In this document: positions 42,743 through 60,290 of the stretch, piece after piece | Layout of the letters: every line of letters begins with the position of its first letter | Position numbering within the stretch: position 1 is the stretch's first letter | Assembly: GCA_000151295.1 (NCBI GenBank) | Contig: GG745328.1 | Span: 1,995,015-2,059,014, forward strand | DNA length: 64,000 nt | Reading direction: 5' to 3' | From: Allomyces macrogynus ATCC 38327 | Taxonomy: Eukaryota; Blastocladiomycota; Blastocladiomycetes; Blastocladiales; Blastocladiaceae | Position numbers and translations under genes: made by a program | The notes under the pieces: generated by a model | Database searches by the model: none | The model's input: the letters and a program-made list of their open reading frames with translations, nothing else | Told to the model about the DNA's origin: nothing

Positions 42743-44752
42743 ATGTCGTCGACCATCGCGGCCGCGGCCAAGACGCCGCCCAAGTTTGTCATCCGCGCAC
42801 GCACGGAGTTCAAGCCGTCCTCGCCCATCGAGCTCTCGTTCAAACGCGGCGATTTCTTTCTCGTCGTGAACCCGAACCCGCCCACGGCGCTCGCGCTCGG
42901 CCGTCCGCCGGACCCGCCCGACGGCGCTGATGCTGGCCTGATGCGCCGTCCTGCCGGCGTCGGGCCCTGGCTCGAAGTCATGGACCCGCTGCGCAATGTC
43001 AAGGGCCTCGTCCCGTCCGATTTCTTTGACGTGATTGAACGCACGGGACACGCGCACCTCGCCGCGTCAGGTGGAGGTGGGTCGGTCGTGGGCATGGCAC
43101 CGTCTAGCCCCGTCCCGACATCCGGCAGCGTTGTTGGCGGTAACGGTTACTCGGCAGCAGCAGCACCGTCGTTGATGAGCCCCGCAGCGGTGGCCCCGGC
43201 CGCTGAAGGCGGCGCACGCCGCCCGTCGTCGTCGTCGCCACCACTCGTCTACCCGGCCGTTGTCCAGTACGATTTCGAACCAGAGAACCCGGACGAGCTG
43301 CATGCGCTCGCCGGCGACCATGTCCTGGTGCTCGCACACTCGGGATTCGAGTGGGTCGTCGCTAAGTTCATCGGCAAGCTCGGGAACCCGGGCCTGATCC
43401 CGATTTCGTACCTACAAATCCGCGATCCGATCACGAACGCGCCCTACTCGGATTTCGCGGCGCAGGTCCTGCACCAGGGCAGGCTGCTGTCGCTACGTGC
43501 GTGGAAGGCCCGGCAGCAGGCACTCGCCGAGCATGCCGTGCAGATTGGTCCGGGATCACCGGCACCTGCGCCGGTGAGCATGACTGGCCACTATTCGTAC
43601 TCGCACGCGTCGCACGGTCACGACTCGCTCGCCGCCAAGGAGCGTGCTCCGGCCCGCATCTCGTCGCGGTCTCAGTCGTACGCCGGGTCGGACCTCCCCG
43701 ACGGATCTGCTGTTGGCACGAATCTACCCCCACCCCCGCTCCGGACGCGCGGGTCCCTCTCTGCCGGCGCTGTTTCGCGCGACGTCTCACCATCACCCAC
43801 CTCGGCAACCACCACCTCCACGACTCCCTCGGCCACCGGCTACCCGCGCGTCGCCGCCGCGACCGTGCCCTCCTTCGAGCCTCGCGGCACCGACTACGTC
43901 TACGCGATTCATGCAACGCGCATTGATCACGCCAAGTTCATCCTCTACCGAACCAGCGACGCGCTCTACGACATCCACCTGCAGTTGACCACGTGGGCCG
44001 CGCGCGACCCGGATATGGTCAATGCCGGCGTCCCGCTCCCGTCGTGGCCCGACGATGTACCCATCGGTGTCCCCGCCGACTCAGACGCGGTCGCGACTGC
44101 GCGGCGGTACCGGCTCGACGCGTACCTGAGCGCCCTCCTCGCGCACCCGTTGGCCGCGAGGATCGCGTCGCATCCAGCCGTCGCGCAGTTTTTCCGACCA
44201 CGTGCCGGGGATAAGATTCGTCGGCCGTCGACGCGCGCGGCGGCAGCGGCAGCGGCCTCGTCGTCGTCGCCAGCACCGCCGCTCCCGAGTACCGGGCCAC
44301 CGCAGCCGCAGCCGGCAGCGCTGATGCGCACGAGCCCGGCGTCGTCGGTACCCGCATCGCCCGTCTCGGCGAATACGCCCGGCGGGGCCGACCAGCTCCC
44401 GCCGCCGGGGATGCCCATGCCACCACCGCCGGCGATCCCCGAACAACAGCCGTTGGCACACCACGTCGAGCTCGCGCGCGCGGCGGAACTGTCACTAAAA
44501 ATCAAGATTGTCTTTGGGCACAAGGTGATCGCAATTCGGTGCAACCCTCACACGATCACGCACGCGTCACTCCTGGCCAAGATCGCCGAAAAACTGTTCG
44601 ATGGTGATATTGGTTCCATCAATCGGCTCGTGTGGCGGCGGCCTGCGGGTGGGGACGCGTCTGCACCCGAGTTTGTGGATGTCGAGGACGAGGACGAGCT
44701 GGCGCGTGCGGTCGCCGAGTCGGGCGAGAAGATGCTCCTGTACGTGCAATGA
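42743..44752 (+). CDS. BEM1: Bem1/Scd2 polarity scaffold (SH3-SH3-PX-PB1)
   Basis: A single exon of 669 aa. SH3-1 is at about residues 13-93 (FVIRARTEFKPSSPIELSFKRGD ... WLEV ... GLVPSDFFDV). SH3-2 is at about 168-232 (YPAVVQYDFEPENPDELHALAGD ... GLIPISYLQI). PX is at about 378-487 (DYVYAIHATRIDHAKFILYRT ... YRLDAYLSALL ... VAQFF). PB1 is at about 582-669 (LSLKIKIVFGHKVIAIRC ... VDVEDEDELARAV). This order is that of fungal Bem1/Scd2, which links Cdc42, its exchange factor Cdc24 (through PB1) and PAK kinases at sites of polarised growth. The linkers are Pro/Ser/Ala-rich. It supports a fungal host. Confidence 0.93.
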   Translation: MSSTIAAAAKTPPKFVIRARTEFKPSSPIELSFKRGDFFLVVNPNPPTALALGRPPDPPDGADAGLMRRPAGVGPWLEVMDPLRNVKGLVPSDFFDVIERTGHAHLAASGGGGSVVGMAPSSPVPTSGSVVGGNGYSAAAAPSLMSPAAVAPAAEGGARRPSSSSPPLVYPAVVQYDFEPENPDELHALAGDHVLVLAHSGFEWVVAKFIGKLGNPGLIPISYLQIRDPITNAPYSDFAAQVLHQGRLLSLRAWKARQQALAEHAVQIGPGSPAPAPVSMTGHYSYSHASHGHDSLAAKERAPARISSRSQSYAGSDLPDGSAVGTNLPPPPLRTRGSLSAGAVSRDVSPSPTSATTTSTTPSATGYPRVAAATVPSFEPRGTDYVYAIHATRIDHAKFILYRTSDALYDIHLQLTTWAARDPDMVNAGVPLPSWPDDVPIGVPADSDAVATARRYRLDAYLSALLAHPLAARIASHPAVAQFFRPRAGDKIRRPSTRAAAAAAASSSSPAPPLPSTGPPQPQPAALMRTSPASSVPASPVSANTPGGADQLPPPGMPMPPPPAIPEQQPLAHHVELARAAELSLKIKIVFGHKVIAIRCNPHTITHASLLAKIAEKLFDGDIGSINRLVWRRPAGGDASAPEFVDVEDEDELARAVAESGEKMLLYVQ

Positions 44753-45587: not shown

Positions 45588-47451
45588 TTACGACGACGCC
45601 GGCACCGGCAACGGGCCGGCACTCCCGACGGTCGCGGCCCCCGCGGTCGCGCCACGCGCGCGCTCGCGCGCGTAAAACTCTTGAATGTACTTGGGCGAGA
45701 TGCGGTTGAGCAGTTCCTTGGGGAACACGCGCAGCAGCGACCAGGCCAAGTCGAGCGACTCGTAGATCGTGCGCGACTCGTAGTAACCCTGGGCAATAAA
45801 CTGCTTTTCAAACTTGTCGAGGAACTCGAGCGACAGCTTATCCTCTTGGTTGAGCGCCTCTTCACCGACAACCGCCTTCATGGCCGCGGCATCACGGCCA
45901 ATCGCGTACTTGGCATACAGCTGGTTCGACACATCGCCGTGGTCCTTGCGCGTCATGCCCTCGCCAATGGCCGACTTCATGAGCCGCGACAGCGACGGCA
46001 GAACGTTGATCGGCGGGTAAATCTGGCGGTTGTGCAGCTGCCGGTCGATAAAGATCTGGCCCTCGGTAATGTACCCCGTCAAATCCGGGATCGGGTGCGT
46101 GATATCGTCGTTGGGCATGGTCAAGATCGGAATCTGCGTGATCGACCCGTTGCGGCCCTCCACTCGGCCGGCACGCTCGTAGATGGTCGACAAGTCTGTG
46201 TACATGTAACCCGGGTACCCGCGACGCCCAGGCACTTCCTCGCGCGCGGCCGAGACTTCGCGCAGCGCGTCGGCGTAGGACGACATGTCGGTGAGAATCA
46301 CGAGCACGTGCTTCTCAAGCTGGTAGGCAAAGTACTCGGCGGTCGTCAGGGCGAGACGCGGCGTGATGATGCGCTCGATCGTCGGGTCGTTGCCGAGGTT
46401 CATGAACAGCGACACGGTCGACCCGGATTCCTCGAATTCTTGCTTAAAGAAGCGCGCTGTTTCCATGTTGACCTAGAGATCGAGATGGTGGTGAGACTCT
46501 TGGCCTCGCATGAGACACACGATAGAAAATGCCGACGTACACCCATGGCGCCAAAGACAATGGCAAAGTTATCCTCGTGGTCGTCGAGCACGCCCTTGGA
46601 CAGTTCCTGCTTGCGGACGAGACCGGCTTGGCGGCAAATCTGTGCGGCAATCTCGTTGTGCGGCAGACCGGCGGCCGAGAAAATCGGGATCTTTTGGCCA
46701 CGCGCAATCGAGTTCATCGTGTCGATGGCCGAAATGCCCGTCTGGATCATTTCCTCTGGGTAGACGCGCGACGACGGGTTGATGGGCTGGCCTGAAGAAG
46801 ACAAAATCGCGTCGGATCAGGGGCAGGGCCGCACGGGGTTGCTTCCGAAAGAGACAACGAGCGCACCCATAATGTCGAGGTAGTCGTCGGCAAAGACCTT
46901 GGGGCCCTTGTCGATGGGCTTGCCGGATCCGTTGAAGACACGGCCGAGCATGTCCTCGGACACGGGCATGCGCATCGTCTCGCCCGTAAACTCGACGTGC
47001 GTCGCCTTGGCGTCGACACCCGACGTGCCCTCAAACACCTGCACGACGGCCTTCTTGCCTGAGACCTCAAGCACCTGGCCCGACCGCTTGGTGCCGTCGG
47101 GCAGCGTCAGCTCGACGATTTCGTAAAACTTGGGGAACTGGAGCGCAGGGGAAACGAGGCCGTGAGCAAGCTGAATCTGAGGCCAGGTGAGGTGAGAATC
47201 ACGCAGCGCGAGCATACCTTGACATTATCGAGAATGACAAGCGGGCCGTTGACACCCGAGACGGTGCGGTAGTCTAATCGGGCGCGGCCGGTGATGAGAA
47301 CCAACTAACGCGGCAGCGAGGATCGGGGGGTGCTTGCGTGCGTACCGAGGCGCGGCTTGAGAATGTAGTCGCGCGTGACGGCGGCCTGGTGCAGCGCAAA
47401 GGCCTCGGAGGCCGACAGGCGCGGGTCTTGCGGTGCGCCCGTGTGCGGCAT
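45588..47451 (-). CDS. VMA2: V-type proton ATPase subunit B
   Basis: Five exons (introns 47274-47345, 47138-47217, 46792-46866, 46473-46540) give 522 aa. Junctions read [41 protein letters not shown], then [27 protein letters not shown], then [26 protein letters not shown]. The nucleotide-binding-like segment [20 protein letters not shown] is the B-subunit version of the P-loop, and [20 protein letters not shown] is highly conserved. Subunit B is the non-catalytic nucleotide-binding subunit of V1, which drives proton pumping at vacuoles and endosomes. The C terminus carries a short Ala/Gly/Pro tail. I am certain of the family. Confidence 0.97.
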
Positions 47452-49416: not shown

Positions 49417-51385
49417 CTAGAACCCGCCCGTCGGCGACCCCGGCATCGGCGCAGCCAGCGGGTTCCCAACGGCCGCGGCCACAGGCGCCGGCTGCTGCTG
49501 CTGCACTGCCGCGGCCAGGGGCGCCACGGGCGACGAGAGCGGCAGCGGCGCGGCGGCGCCAAACCCGCCAGTGCCAATCGGCGACGTCACGGGCGGCGAG
49601 CTCGCGCCAAAACCGCCCTGCATGCGCACGGGCGAGATGGGCACGGGCGCCGCACCGCCAAACCCGCCCATGGCCATGGGCGCGGCCGCCACCTTGATCG
49701 GCACTGGCGCCGGGGTCGCGGGGGACTTGGCACGCGACGGCGACGGCATGCGGATGTCGTCGTCCTCGTGATCAACGACGGCGTCCTGTGGAATGAAGTT
49801 GGGGGTGGGGGTGGTGAGTGTTGGTGGGATTGATCACGGGGCGCATCACGGTTGGGAGGGAGAAGCGCACCTGGTACTGCTGGTACTCGGACACGAGGTC
49901 GTTCACTACAAAGCGGCACCGGGTTTCATGGTCAGCACACGCGGCAAAGCCGCGACAAAAACGCAAAGAGACACGCACTGTTCGACTCGGCCTCGGTAAA
50001 CTCCATCTCGTCCATGCCCTCGCCCGTGTACCAATGCAAGAAGGCCTTGCGGCGGAACATCGAGACAAACTGCGCATTGATGCGCTTGAACAAGTCCTGA
50101 ATCGACGTCGAGTTGCCAATAAAGACCGACGACATCTTGAGCCCACGCGGCGGGATATCGCACACGGCCGTCTTGACATTGTACGGGATCCACTCGACAA
50201 AGTGCGACGAGTTCTTGGCCTGCATGTTGCACATTTGGTGGTCGACCTCCTTCATCGACACGCGGCCGCGGAAAATGGTCGCGACCGTCAGGTACCGCCC
50301 ATGGCGAGGGTCGCACGCCGTCATCATGTTCTTGGCGTCAAACATTTGCGTCGTGAGCTCCGGCACCGTCAAAGCGCGGTACTGCTGTGACCCGCGCGAC
50401 GTGAGCGGCGCAAATCCGCACATGAAAAAGTGCAGCCGCGGGAACGGGATCATGTTCACGGCCAGCTTGCGCATGTCGGCGTTGAGCTGCCCGGGGAACC
50501 GCAAGCACGTGGTCACGCCCGACATGACGGCCGAGACGAGATGGTTCAAGTCGCCATAGCTTGGGTTGGCCAGCTTGAGCGTGCGGAAGCAAATGTCGTA
50601 GAGCGCCTCGTTATCGATGCAGAAGGTCATGTCGGCATTCTCGACGAGCTGGTGCACCGAGAGCGTCGCGTTGTAGGGCTCAACGACCGTGTCCGACACC
50701 TTGGGCGACGGCGCGACCGAGAACGTGCACATCATGCGGTCCGGGAACTCTTCGCGCACCTTGGAAATGAGCAGCGTGCCGAGACCGGACCCGGTGCCTC
50801 CGCCCAGCGAGTGCGTGATCTGGAAGCCCTGCAGGCAGTCGCACGTCTCGACTTCCTTGCGCACCACGTCGAGGACCGACTCGACGAGCTCGGCACCCTC
50901 CGTGTAGTAGCCCTTGGCCCAGTTATTGCCGGCGCCCGACTGCCCGAAAATGAAGTTGTCGGGCCGGAAAAGCGCGCCGTAAGGACCGGCGCGGACCGAG
51001 TCCATGGTGCCGGGCTCGAGGTCGACGAGGATTGAGCTATTTTGGGCGAGAAAACGCGTCAGATCGGATTCGCAGAATCAGCTTACTCGCGTAAAAGCTC
51101 CAAATAAAGCGTACCGCGGCACGTATTTGCCGCCCGAAGCCTCATTGTAGTAGACATTGACGCGCTCGAGCTGCAGCGGGTTGTCGCCCGAGTAGGTGCC
51201 CGACGCGTCAATGCCGTGCTCATCGGAGATCACTTCCCAGAACTTGGCGCCGATTTGATTGCCGCACTAGAAAGGATTTGGATGTTGTCGAGCGAGGTCA
51301 GAACATGCCCAGGAACGCGCCGAAGTGCGCGAGTCGCAAGAGGGAAGCGTACCTGGCCGACCGCGAGGCAGACAATTTCGCGCAT
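49417..51385 (-). CDS. Beta-tubulin with a ~105-residue GGFG/Ser-Pro-rich C-terminal extension
   Basis: Five exons (introns 51267-51352, 51037-51114, 49906-49978, 49786-49870) give 548 aa; normal beta-tubulin is about 445. The start is [24 protein letters not shown]; the MREI tetrapeptide is the autoregulatory start of beta-tubulin mRNAs. The body is canonical: [21 protein letters not shown], the GGGTGSG nucleotide loop, and the C-terminal helix end [20 protein letters not shown]. Instead of the usual Glu-rich tail, the last exon reads [20 protein letters not shown] followed by three imperfect repeats around GGFG ([45 protein letters not shown]) and a Gln/Ala/Pro end. The last intron has a normal donor and acceptor and keeps frame. 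Very confident of tubulin; the tail is as read. Confidence 0.96.
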
Positions 51386-55068: not shown

Positions 55069-57842
55069 TTACTTTTCACGCATCTTGACCCACGCCTTCC
55101 CTGCGATCTTGCCCGTACCCGTCGCGTTAAAACTTGCCCGCGCCCGTATGCAGCTCACCCTGCAGCGCCAGCAACACATCTCTCACATGCAATCGCTTAT
55201 GCCGAGCCTGCGCGGCCGCGGTGCCAGGAACCGGCACGCCCGCGCCCGCCGCTGCCGCCACACCCGCCGCCGGCCCCTTGCCGGCACGCGGTCCGCCCAA
55301 CAAATCCGCGCGCCGCTTGGCCACAAGTGCAGCCGCACGTTTCGCTGCAGCCGTCGCGAGCGAGACCCCCGCGCCCGGCGCGGCACCTGGGACAGCCGCG
55401 ATCGCAGCAGACGACGTGGGCGGACCACCGGCCCCAGCGCCGCCCATGGTCATCCACGACCGCGCGGCACCGCCGGCAGCGAGGAACGCAGTCGTATTGG
55501 CGTTACGTTGCCGCGCCTCTTCGGCAATATTGGCGCGCTCCTTGCGCTCGCGTTTCTTGGAGAGTGCGGGCAACGACGCGGCCATGGAAGCGATGGGCGC
55601 GGGCGGCGGCGGCGGTGGTGGGGGGCGGGGACGCGTGGTCGCCGTCGACGGACATCGCATCACCATTTCGGCGCGGCGGGGATCGAGGATGGAGCCACGA
55701 TAGCGGGGCCGTGAATCAATCCACGTGCACGCGCTGCGGCATGCTCCTCGGCCGCGACCTGCAACGCGGCGTCACGAATATGCAGCAGCGCGAGCGTCGA
55801 CTCTGGGTGGTCCGCGAGACACAATTCGTACGCGACCATCTTGGGCGTCTCGTCGGCCCACCGGCCGCATTCGCATCCGCCTGCCGCGCCGCCGCGAGTT
55901 GCGGGATCCGGAACGGGGTCATGAGCACGGGCGCCTCGCCCGGCTGCGAGACGCCCATCGCCGCCAAGTCGCGGTGCAGGGACGCGCCAGTGCGCTGGTT
56001 AGCCGCATGCACCGCGTCCGTGACGACCGTACGCAGCCGTTCCTGCAGAGCGAGCGCAAGGAAATGTAGGGCCGACTCGGATACGTGTGCGAGCCCTTCG
56101 CGCCCGGCAATCTGTTCCATGCGCGACCGGATGGCCGGCACGTTCACGTGCAGTCGCTCGACGGCCGCCTGTGTTGCGGGCGCGCCAGCGGCGCCGGCCG
56201 TGCGCGTGCGCAGCATTTCTTCCTCGTGCTCGAGGTTCACCCCGAGCGTCGCGAGCGCCTGGTCCTCGTCGTCGCCCGCGGCTTTACGGCCGCCTTTAGC
56301 GGCAGCGGGCGCCGAGGAAGATGCAATCGTGGTTCCGGCCGCGGCAATACTGCTTGGAGTCAAGGACGACGACGCCGGCTGCGTCGTGAGCGAGCCCGCG
56401 GTACTCGGCGGAATCCCGGGAGGTGCCATGTACGAGAACCCAGCGAGTCCAGCGTACATTTCTGGCGTCATGCCCGCAGTCGAGAAGGACATGGGTATCG
56501 CGGCCATGGGCATGGTCGACGCGGCCGTGGTGCCCGGGATGATCATGGGCGACGCACGCCCAGCTGGACCCGGAATCACGACGGGCATCGGCGACGTCGC
56601 GCTCGACGGGGTCGCCGTCGGTACTGCCGACGCCACGGTCGTGGCGGGCGCAGTGGCAACGGGCGGCTTGCCGACCACACCGGGTGTAGCAGCACGCGGC
56701 TTCTTGGCCGCGGTCCCACCCGCCGCACCCGCCTGCCCGGGCCGTTTCCGTGCGGCCGCTGTGGCCGGCTTACCGGCTACCGCTGTGTTGGGCCCTGCGC
56801 GCGCCAAGTGCTCCATGGCCGCGAGCGACTTGAATTTCTCGGGCCCGAGGAGCGCGTGCGCGCGGTCCAGGAACTCGTTTGCCGAAATGGCCTTGGTGCT
56901 AAACGAGTTCCAAAGCACCGTGATTTGCTCGCGAATATCGGGTGCGACTTCATTAATGACGGACCCGAGCGTCGCATTCGGGGCTGCGAGACCCGGCATT
57001 GGTGCTGGTGCGGGAGTCGGGACGGCAGGTGGCGGGATTACGGGTGCGGCTGCGGGAGCGGGTGCAGGTGCAGGTACTGATACCGGCGCAATCGTCACGG
57101 GCATCGACGGTGCGGGGGACGCGACGCGTGCCGCTGCCGCTGCCGCAGCAGGCGTGTTGAGAACGACGGCCGGCGACGTGCCGCGCGACGGCGGCGCCGG
57201 GGTCGCAGCCATGGCGGGGGACATGACGGGACTGCTCGCGGCACTGCCTGGGCGCGACCACGCGCCCAAACTCGACGGTGGGTGCCCGGCGGGATTCGCC
57301 GCGGAGAGTGATGGCGTCGCGGCGGCCGAGACAGACGCGCCTGCGGGAATGCCGTACATGGCCGAGCTCGCAAATTGCGGCGCGGTCGCGGCCAAGTGCA
57401 TGGGCGGGGGCCGCATCAAGAACGGTGCGTACATGCGGTTGTACATGTGGTACATCCCAGCGGCGGCCGCAGCGGGGTAGGCGGCCGCCTGTGGGTGCGC
57501 CGCCATCATGCCTGCGGGCATCATACCTGCGGGTGCCGTCGGGACGTGCGGCGGCGGGACGGTGCCCGGTACAGAAGCGTAGGACGGGCGCGCGGCAGCA
57601 GCAGCGGCAGCAGCAGCCGCGGCCATGGCGGCCGAGGACGCGGGGGCCAGGACGAGCGGTGACGCGGCGCGCGAGGCCGGATTGGCGGCGTTCATGGCGG
57701 CGACCTGCGGCTGACTTGCGAGAGCGGTCGGGGTCGGGATGCGCGCGTGCTCGAGCGGCTGGATCTGGCTGAGCAGGGCCTCGACGTCGGCGGCGGCGAG
57801 CGGCACGCCGTGGGGCGGCGGGCCGCCGTTAGGCGTGCTCAT
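55069..57842 (-). CDS. TAF4: TFIID subunit TAF4
   Basis: Starts MSTPNGGPPPHG. The first ~290 residues are Ala/Pro-rich. Then an RST-type domain: VINEVAPDIREQITVLWNSF, ANEFLDRAHALLG. The TAF4 C-terminal histone-fold region follows: SRMEQIAGREGLAHVSES, LHFLALALQERLRTVV, then LSKKRERKERANIAEEA, NANTTAFLAAGGAARSW and RLHVRDVLLALQ/GKAWVKMREK. The last intron is 55101-55158 (GTGAGC...GCAG). A further junction near 55759-55861 is ambiguous: a 103-nt GTGGGC...TTGCAG intron restores frame and gives 870 aa in total, but that stretch also reads as convincing protein in another frame (ETPKMVAYELCLADHPE), which would instead imply two missing bases. TAF4 is the TFIID core partner of TAF12. The TAA stop overlaps an AATAAA. 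Confidence 0.85.
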
Positions 57843-58207: not shown

Positions 58208-60290
58208 TCAGCGATTGGCCGGCGTCTCCGGGGGATGCCAACATTCCGCGACCACCTCATTCGGCGCCAACTGGTCCGTGTCGATCCCCTCTGCCACCCT
58301 CTTGCGGCTCAAGCGCGGCTTCCTCTTTGACTTCTCCGGCGCGGGCGCACGCATCTCCACTGGGAGTGGCAGGAGGTCATTGATGCCCGTGACCGCCGCG
58401 CCGTACTGGGCCACGGCCGCGTCGAGAGCACTGGCCACCCCTTCATCAAACGCGACCACATCAAACGGCCGCACCTGGAACTGTTCCAAGATCTTGACTT
58501 CCTGCTCGGCATTGATCGACGCGGCGGCCCGCTCCTTGGCAAACACGGCCACCTCGTTCACTTCGTCGAGATCCAGCAACGAATGCTTGAACACGGTGCG
58601 CGCCTCCTCGGGCGCAAACGACTCGTCACACTGCTCGCGCAATGCCGGGTTCGCCTCCAATGCCTTCTCCAGAGACCCAAACTGCTGCACGAGCGCGAGT
58701 CCCTTGACCGGCCCGATATTCCGGATCCCGCCGCTATAGTCGCACCCACACACGACGGCAAAATCAATCAGCGCGTTCAAGTCTCGCAACTTGAGCGCTT
58801 CGAGCAAGTACGGGTCCGGCGGAGCGAGAGCCATCGGCGCCTTGTCAGTGCGGTACAAGTTGTGCACAACCGGCAACTTGGGCCAAAACACGTGCACGTC
58901 CGAGTCCTCGGTCGCGACCCACTGCGCGTGGCCGAGGTGCACGAGCGCCCCACACACTTGTTCGGCCTCGGTGCGCGCGGGAGCGTAGACGACGGGGATA
59001 CCGCGCGCGGTCAGGAGGGTTTCCAACGTATCAACAACTTCCATGTCGGGACCGCGCGTAGATGCGTCGAGCCGCGTCCGCTCGCGCGCGAGTGACTTGA
59101 CCCAGGCGTTGAGTTGCTCGGGGGTCGCTTCCGTCGCTGCGTCGAGTTCTTGCAGCGTCTTGGCCACGCGTGAGCGGAACGTGCCGAGGTTGGCCAAAGT
59201 CGACAGCGGGACCGGTGGAGCGAGGGGCACGCGAACTGGTTCGGGCGGTTGAACAGTGGCGGCAGGTGTTGCACCCGGCTACATTCGAGCACATTTGCAA
59301 TTAACTCGGGGGCGAAGAGTGAGCACTGCACACGAAACCTGGGCGCACCACATCCAAGGCCATCCGTTCCAGCGCAGCGTTGAGCGCGTCAAGCGACACG
59401 GGTGCATCAGAAATCGGCTCGCCAACCACCGACACCTGCGCGATCATTTCCGCATCCACCGACTGAACAGTCGGCTGCAACAATCCAGGTTCATCGACGA
59501 CCGACACTGTGGACTGACTCGGTGGCAGCTCAGCCGATTCGGTCACAGTTGGCGTCAAGTGCGGCGACGCTGCCATCTCGGTCACCGACGGACGCAATGC
59601 AAACGGTGCGGTCGCCCCCTCCTCGACCATTATCGGCGTCACGGTCGCAGGGTGGCCCATGCCCACTCGCTGCGGGGCAGGCACGGTCGGTCGCGAATCG
59701 AGCCCCAAATCACTTGCTGCGACAGGTTCAACTGCGCTGGTGATCATCTCGTCGACGGTCAGCGTGAAGTCGCCCTCGCCGTCGACAGTGGCCGTGACCG
59801 TCGCGGCAATCTCGACGCTCGGCGGCACCCCCTCGACCTGCTCTGCCGTCTCCGCCGCAACCTCGACCTCCTGTGCTGGCGCCGCCACCCCCACCCCCGG
59901 CACATTCTCAAACCCATGCCGCAGCATCACATCGCGAATAAACTCCTCCCCAATCTCCGCCGCGTCACGCAACTCGAGTGACCGTGCGCGTCGTGCCGCG
60001 CGTTCGCGGTGCGCGACCTTTTCCTTGGCAACAGGCCGCATCGCGCCATCAAACACGACAATCGGCGTGATCTGATGGTACGCGAGGTAGTCGAGCATGT
60101 TGTTCGTGTACTGCACGCACAGCCGCGGCGCCGAATCGGCGCGCTGCGATTGCGCAGCAAACCAGAACCTGTTGAGTGTGAGCGTGCCGTCGATCGCGAC
60201 GGTTTGCCCGCGTAGCGCCGAGATGGACAAAGGGCGGTAGCAGTACGGGTGCTTGTCGCGGATGAACTTGAGCAGGTTCTTGATGCCCAT
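58208..60290 (-). CDS. FEN1/XPG-family structure-specific nuclease with long insertion
   Basis: Two exons (intron 59279-59333, 55 nt) give 675 aa. The N domain starts MGIKNLLKFIRDKHPYCYRP, followed by GQTVAIDGTLTLNRF and ITPIVVFDGAMRPVAKEK, holding two of the conserved Asp. After about residue 130 comes a ~200-residue acidic, Val/Thr-rich insertion with no visible fold. The I domain has GIPVVYAPARTEAEQVC (Glu 423 and 425), ATEDSDVHVF (Asp 444 and 446) and CGCDYSGGIRNIGPVKGLAL, so the metal-binding acids of the family appear intact. The C terminus is basic (KSKRKPRLSRKR) without an obvious PCNA-binding QxxLxxFF box. It is longer than FEN1 (~380 aa) and shorter than XPG. The precise orthology is uncertain; 5'-flap cleavage in DNA repair or replication is inferred. 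Confidence 0.85.

Follow-up and report, generated by a model that had tools for sequence, protein, structure and literature searches.

We describe a second beta-tubulin isotype of the Blastocladiomycota, which carries a long, near-neutral C-terminal tail and which we tentatively favour as a non-axonemal tubulin, the microtubule cage of the zoospore being its first candidate site and the spindle its second. The gene from which the analysis started lies in a window of 64,000 nucleotides of the Allomyces macrogynus ATCC 38327 genome (i.e. the whole stretch of DNA that was analysed), on the minus strand at 51385-49417, and comprises five exons and four GT-AG introns of 73 to 86 bp. The predicted protein counts 548 residues, namely a canonical tubulin body of 426 residues that ends in SEYQQYQ, followed by 122 residues from the last exon. 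When the gene model was re-read, the sequence, frame, coordinates and GT-AG intron at 49786-49870 given in the first-pass annotation all proved correct. The parts of the gene are:

51353..51385, minus strand: exon 1 (11 residues), with the start codon at 51385 (gene model)
51267..51352, minus strand: intron 1, 86 bp, GT-AG (gene model)
51115..51266, minus strand: exon 2 (gene model)
51037..51114, minus strand: intron 2, 78 bp, GT-AG (gene model)
49979..51036, minus strand: exon 3, the bulk of the tubulin body (gene model and tubulin profile match)
49906..49978, minus strand: intron 3, 73 bp, GT-AG (gene model)
49871..49905, minus strand: exon 4, the canonical body end, closing with 12 residues (gene model)
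49786..49870, minus strand: intron 4, 85 bp, GT-AG, phase 0, at the border of body and tail (gene model)
49417..49785, minus strand: exon 5, the tail exon, 122 residues and the stop codon (gene model, second copy, tailed relatives)

Despite the variant tail, the product is a beta-tubulin by its domain matches: PF00091 matches the window locus with an E-value of 9.7e-53, and the database protein P0002 (tubulin beta chain, A. macrogynus ATCC 38327) carries both PF00091 and PF03953. The window gene model includes the MREI start and the GGGTGSG loop, which we take to be beta-tubulin features. P0002 corresponds to a second copy of the gene (L005), located on another contig, which has the same exon structure and, when spliced like the window gene, yields a protein identical to the annotated one. 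If intron 4 is retained, a frame of 32 residues follows and then a stop. As for a different, acidic tail exon, which the first-pass annotation had considered, a scan of the 2,970 bases that run from 49870 towards lower coordinates for an AG followed by 6-80 residues with at least 30% D/E turned up none, and the same scan at the second copy gave one 6-residue frame in 784 bases. That the tail is an artefact of annotation or assembly, through a misassigned last exon or fusion with a neighbouring frame, is in our view extremely improbable: the evidence does all come from genome or metagenome predictions, yet the two loci lie on different contigs with an identical exon structure, selection is apparent at the codon level, tailed relatives occur in three other genera, and the acidic-exon scan offered no alternative in the 2,970 bases covered.

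Other frames in the window were looked at by eye. A long open frame at 42743-44752 (plus strand) resembles a Bem1-type scaffold (two SH3-like stretches, PX, PB1), a frame at 45588-46466 (minus strand) the vacuolar ATPase B subunit, and an Ala/Pro/Ser-rich frame at 55716-57842 (minus strand) is TAF4-like, while two frames at 58208-60290 (minus strand) look like one XPG/FEN1-family nuclease gene. Ala/Pro/Ser-rich low-complexity stretches are, again by eye, also present in neighbouring frames and not just in the tubulin tail.

Searching the 54-Mb assembly with the Pfam tubulin profile gave 16 matches, whose loci were then read. The number of beta-tubulin genes, a count that had been proposed as a check on the first reading, is five: two are tailed (the window gene and L005) and three (L003, L004 and L008) have ordinary acidic tails that read DATADDEGELD(D/E)EGDAEAEA. 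A search with alpha-tubulin recovered one full alpha-tubulin gene, ending in EEEEAEEY, and TTL-family matches number 11, at four loci. We note that there are five beta-tubulin loci versus one full-length alpha; several other tubulin and TTL loci of the assembly are paired. Capture of the tail from another gene was considered and rejected, a genome search with the tail matching only its own two copies (E<=1, 3 candidates scored).

The body and the MREI start of the tailed isotype are like those of ordinary beta-tubulin (L003, L004 and L008, and solved chains, e.g. beta-4B), whereas the short Glu-rich C-terminal tail that is typical of beta-tubulin is absent from the window gene. An ordinary Allomyces beta tail has 20 residues, 11 of which are acidic (5 to 6 Glu), and a net charge of -11; the tail described here has 122 residues, one Glu and a net charge of -1. 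It opens with an acidic stub of ten residues, and the remaining 112 are near-neutral, rich in Ser/Thr-Pro and include no acidic residue. The stub is an altered form of the normal tail start (DATADDEGELD... in the ordinary genes). The initial description of an acidic tail that has been replaced therefore needs amending: the Glu-rich tail is indeed lost, but by being cut short and extended, with its stub kept, and not by being wholly swapped. The following features were recognised in the tail:

49756..49785, minus strand: acidic stub (alignment of six tails)
49732..49743, minus strand: S-P-S-R, full CDK-type consensus, also in the Sorochytrium tail (tail comparison)
49657..49668, minus strand: first GGFG, SGFG in the second copy (sequence of both copies)
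49636..49647, minus strand: PVPI, which aligns with PVPIARP of Catenaria and Blastocladiella (tail alignment)
49624..49635, minus strand: S-P-V-R, second full CDK-type consensus (tail comparison)
49606..49617, minus strand: second GGFG (sequence)
49558..49569, minus strand: third GGFG (sequence)

The repeats around GGFG that had been noticed at the outset are real, in that the three exact copies compare with a mean of 0.005 in shuffles of the same residues (0 of 20,000 reach three). Sites of the type [ST]P number 8, against 2.6 expected (8 are reached in 10 of 20,000 shuffles); two S-P-x-R sites, which we take as the full CDK-type consensus, are reached in 94 of 20,000 shuffles, and three FG pairs in 131 of 20,000. 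Expansion of the GGFG units as a DNA tandem repeat was discarded as an explanation: Tandem Repeats Finder gives only three short arrays, with units of 5-9 bases.

Judged by its pattern of substitution, the Allomyces tail is maintained by selection as a protein. Without the stop codon, the tails of the two copies differ by 21 bases but only 4 amino acids, with no indel (dS 0.19, dN/dS 0.08), and the bodies by 59 bases and 3 amino acids (dS 0.22, dN/dS 0.014). The same substitutions placed at random in the tail cause 14.3 amino-acid changes on average, with none of 20,000 trials as low as 4, and they create a stop in 11% of the trials. Outside the coding sequence the two copies align with gaps: each of the four introns (71-91 bp) has 57-69 shared bases and 5-8 gap positions, and gaps also occur in the 300-base flanks on both sides. 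As a yardstick, dS between the main exons of the ordinary beta copies is 0.13 to 0.20. The scarcity of amino-acid changes and the lack of indels argue that the tail is kept by selection as a protein, and the similar dS of tail and body makes a recent conversion restricted to the tail unlikely.

Relatives were taken from the best 120 of the 7,511 matches that passed in a search with full P0002 (7,971 candidates scored). Besides P0002 itself, these 120 include three tailed proteins, namely P0058 of Blastocladiella britannica (tail of 117 residues), P0064 of Sorochytrium milnesiophthora (51 residues) and P0062, a metagenome protein on a JGI contig of 1,672 bases (54 residues). Many long database entries, by appearance tandem or fused gene models of tubulin, crowd the top matches of this search. 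When the C-terminal region of P0062 served as the query, the best 120 of 5,589 passing matches added P0146 of Catenaria anguillulae (103 residues), the gene model of which starts without the N-terminus. The pattern used to recognise tails failed in 16 of 220 proteins; P0146 was among them and was read by hand, and the other 15 lie outside the survey. A. macrogynus and the Blastocladiella, Catenaria and Sorochytrium species all belong to the Blastocladiomycota, and a chytrid with such a tail was found neither among the best 120 of 7,511 nor among the best 120 of 5,589. A protein search with the tail alone (7,997 candidates scored) gave one match at E<=10; it says little because it missed the known tailed relatives of Catenaria, Blastocladiella, Sorochytrium and the metagenome. 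The absence of the tail from all close relatives, which the first-pass annotation had listed, together with evidence of misassembly, as counting against its reading, is contradicted by its presence in three other genera. On the sequence evidence, at least four blastoclad genera have the tailed beta-tubulin as an isotype, and it is not an artefact.

How much of the tail is shared varies along its length and between lineages. A-V-V-D and one Glu are invariant in the six aligned tails, and PVPI is common to the three genera with long tails (Allomyces, Catenaria and Blastocladiella). The exact GGFG is found in Allomyces only; FG occurs 3 times in Allomyces, 2 times in Catenaria, once in Blastocladiella and not at all in Sorochytrium and P0062, the tails of which are short and have a net charge of -5. 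Enrichment of [ST]P is seen in the three long-tailed genera (10, 213 and 243 of 20,000 shuffles match or exceed the count), and full S-P-x-R sites number two in Allomyces and one in Sorochytrium, with none in Catenaria, Blastocladiella and P0062. Beyond the stub, the Catenaria and Blastocladiella tails align with a score of 178, versus a shuffled mean of 60.6 (0 of 2,000 shuffles as good), and those of Allomyces and Catenaria clearly (5 of 2,000), while the similarity of Allomyces to Blastocladiella is weak (89 of 2,000). Between themselves the short tails align fairly well (17 of 2,000 shuffles as good), but they are no better than shuffles against Catenaria (578 and 1,594 of 2,000) and, outside the stub, hardly above shuffles against Allomyces (148 and 330 of 2,000). 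A tail function common to the whole clade is accordingly putative.

The rapid change in length and sequence between genera (51 to 122 residues) and the confinement of the exact GGFG to Allomyces would fit a relaxed tail, i.e. one that drifted by low-complexity expansion after the gene had ceased to serve where acidity is required, tolerated but functionless. We nevertheless give this explanation a low probability, since the two Allomyces copies show strong constraint and no indels, the alignment of the Catenaria and Blastocladiella tails lies far above shuffles, and the [ST]P enrichment recurs in three genera. Of the two molecular roles first suggested for the tail, FG-type phase separation does not survive as the main reading: it is weak because the exact GGFG occurs only in Allomyces, where one copy has already changed (SGFG in the second gene), and the motif is not kept in the relatives. 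The suggestion of a substrate for proline-directed kinases fares better, in as far as Ser/Thr-Pro is enriched in all three long-tailed genera, and kinase regulation would seem the better reading of these sequences.

The phylogenetic tree was built from 39 hand-picked bodies among the matches (P0151 was dropped for its length); of the four genera, Allomyces is the one in which ordinary beta-tubulins were sought. In it, the six tailed bodies form one clade (100/98) that is separate from ordinary Allomyces beta. By this tree, the duplication predates the split of Allomyces, Catenaria, Blastocladiella and Sorochytrium, and a tree in which the tailed and the ordinary Allomyces beta are held together is not rejected (p-AU 0.089), which leaves room for more than one placement relative to other fungi. 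The proposal of a separate beta isotype in a blastoclad fungus is borne out.

The tailed Allomyces body is identical to that of ordinary L003 at 364 of 413 aligned residues. All six tailed bodies have Ala170 and Tyr347, which none of the up to 33 others in the comparison shares, and Cys6 is present in the five tailed bodies that are readable there and in 2 of the others, ordinary Allomyces beta having His. At position 198, where ordinary Allomyces beta has Glu, the tailed proteins have Met, Ala or Gln, but Ala or Met is also found there in 5 of the 33 other rows; the window gene itself has Cys6, Ala170, Met198 and Tyr347. Positions 6 and 198 presumably line the benzimidazole site, and the tailed and ordinary isotypes may differ in their sensitivity to benzimidazoles; a literature search on these drug-site positions found nothing.

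Modelling covered P0002 only. With 46 sequences, AlphaFold2 gave a folded body at middling confidence (mean pLDDT 66.3, pTM 0.67), in which residues 435-548 nearly all have a pLDDT <50; with 4 sequences the model was poor (mean pLDDT 37.7). The tail is accordingly predicted to be disordered. Beta chains in the PDB match approximately residues 1-434 of P0002, and the best 60 of 170 matches end at or before residue 435.

Published motifs bear on the microtubules that the isotype may serve: EGEF is an axoneme motif, EEEE a modification motif and (S/T)G(G/A) at positions 55-57 an outer-dynein motif (PMC3382179). An axonemal or kinetosomal isotype, the long tail of which binds flagellar or basal-body components, would agree with the fact that blastoclads are flagellated fungi (PMC13358043) and with the SGG that both Allomyces copies have at 55-57. 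We consider it improbable. EGEF and EEEE are missing from 6/6 tails, positions 55-57 read GSG, AGN and SNG in the three other lineages that are readable there (the Catenaria model being without this region) and do not fit the motif, EGEL in the ordinary Allomyces tails differs from the axoneme motif by a single residue, and the two sets of 120 best matches hold no tailed chytrid. Axonemal use, which the first-pass annotation had listed among the options, is therefore disfavoured, while the motif at 55-57 in both Allomyces copies speaks for it. Spindle or cytoplasmic microtubules, the other options of the first-pass annotation, stay candidates.

Somewhat unlikely, in our estimation, is an isotype that serves the mitotic and meiotic spindles, with CDK phosphorylation of S-P-x-R switching its partners at division. 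It is encouraged by the two full CDK-type sites in Allomyces and the one in Sorochytrium, and by the beta-like tubulins BLT1 and BLT4 of Tetrahymena, which are without the axoneme and EEEE motifs and which, when GFP-tagged, label nuclear microtubules and spindles and not cilia (PMC3382179). The Catenaria, Blastocladiella and P0062 tails, however, contain no full CDK-type site, and the tailed body is near ordinary beta, whereas the BLTs are at 56-65%. To our knowledge a spindle is required in every fungus, yet among the matches listed the isotype is seen only in blastoclads and in one metagenome protein.

In zoospores, an array of microtubules that runs from the kinetosome around the nucleus and the nuclear cap is described as a defining trait of the Blastocladiomycota (PMC9616733). 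This cage is our first candidate for a single reason, namely that the distribution of the isotype fits the cage at the level of the phylum. Under the tentatively favoured non-axonemal reading, the complete tailed beta body should pair with the single alpha-tubulin found, which keeps its acidic tail, and would add to the microtubule a short acidic stub followed by some 40 to 110 residues of low-complexity sequence. Where this isotype is abundant, the microtubules would have a bulky and less acidic beta-side surface; with the beta-side Glu cluster gone, they would be poor substrates for beta polyglutamylation and would be bound less by the motors and MAPs that read tails, while the tail could present its own partners with short motifs and with sites for proline-directed phosphorylation. 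The first array in which such microtubules might be expected is the cage around the nucleus and nuclear cap, the second the spindle. A stronger version, in which the tailed beta would be the molecular basis of the blastoclad zoospore cage, its disordered, regulatable and near-neutral brush hiding the cage from the readers of acidic tails and linking it to the nuclear cap, is unlikely as it stands.

Known tubulins resemble the isotype in part. Tetrahymena BLT1 and BLT4 likewise form a second beta class without the axoneme and EEEE motifs beside the canonical one, but their bodies share 65% and 56% identity with canonical beta, with total lengths of 471 and 458 (PMC3382179), whereas the Allomyces body is near canonical and its tail far longer. 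Toxoplasma alpha3-tubulin also has an unusually long tail (PMC10056924), which is less acidic than usual (PMC9294176); it is, however, an alpha-tubulin, with a tail of about 40 to 48 residues (PMC10056924), and the 122 residues of the Allomyces beta tail are more than twice that. An apicomplexan review calls the alpha3 tail extraordinarily long and says that no other characterised tubulin has been observed to have one like it (PMC10056924). The beta-tubulins P0159 and P0197 (ENA contigs) similarly have a long non-acidic extension behind an acidic stub (85 and 62 residues after the body), but these tails are Arg/Ser-rich, unlike those of the blastoclads, and the proteins group with animal beta-tubulins in the tree (100/97, 4 rows); by composition and tree position, theirs is a separate origin. 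In the titles and abstract openings that were searched (best matches only, subscription journals excluded) such a beta tail is not reported, and the passages searched in a fungal flagellum atlas, which treat tubulins, do not mention one (PMC13358043). As far as the literature search shows, a non-acidic beta tail of 103 to 122 residues in three genera, and shorter in two more lineages, is new.

The tubulin code resides mainly in the tubulin tails. The finding suggests that some microtubules of this fungus have a very different surface, and the isotype offers both a unique epitope for seeing one tubulin isotype in zoosporic fungi and a natural experiment on the need for an acidic beta tail.
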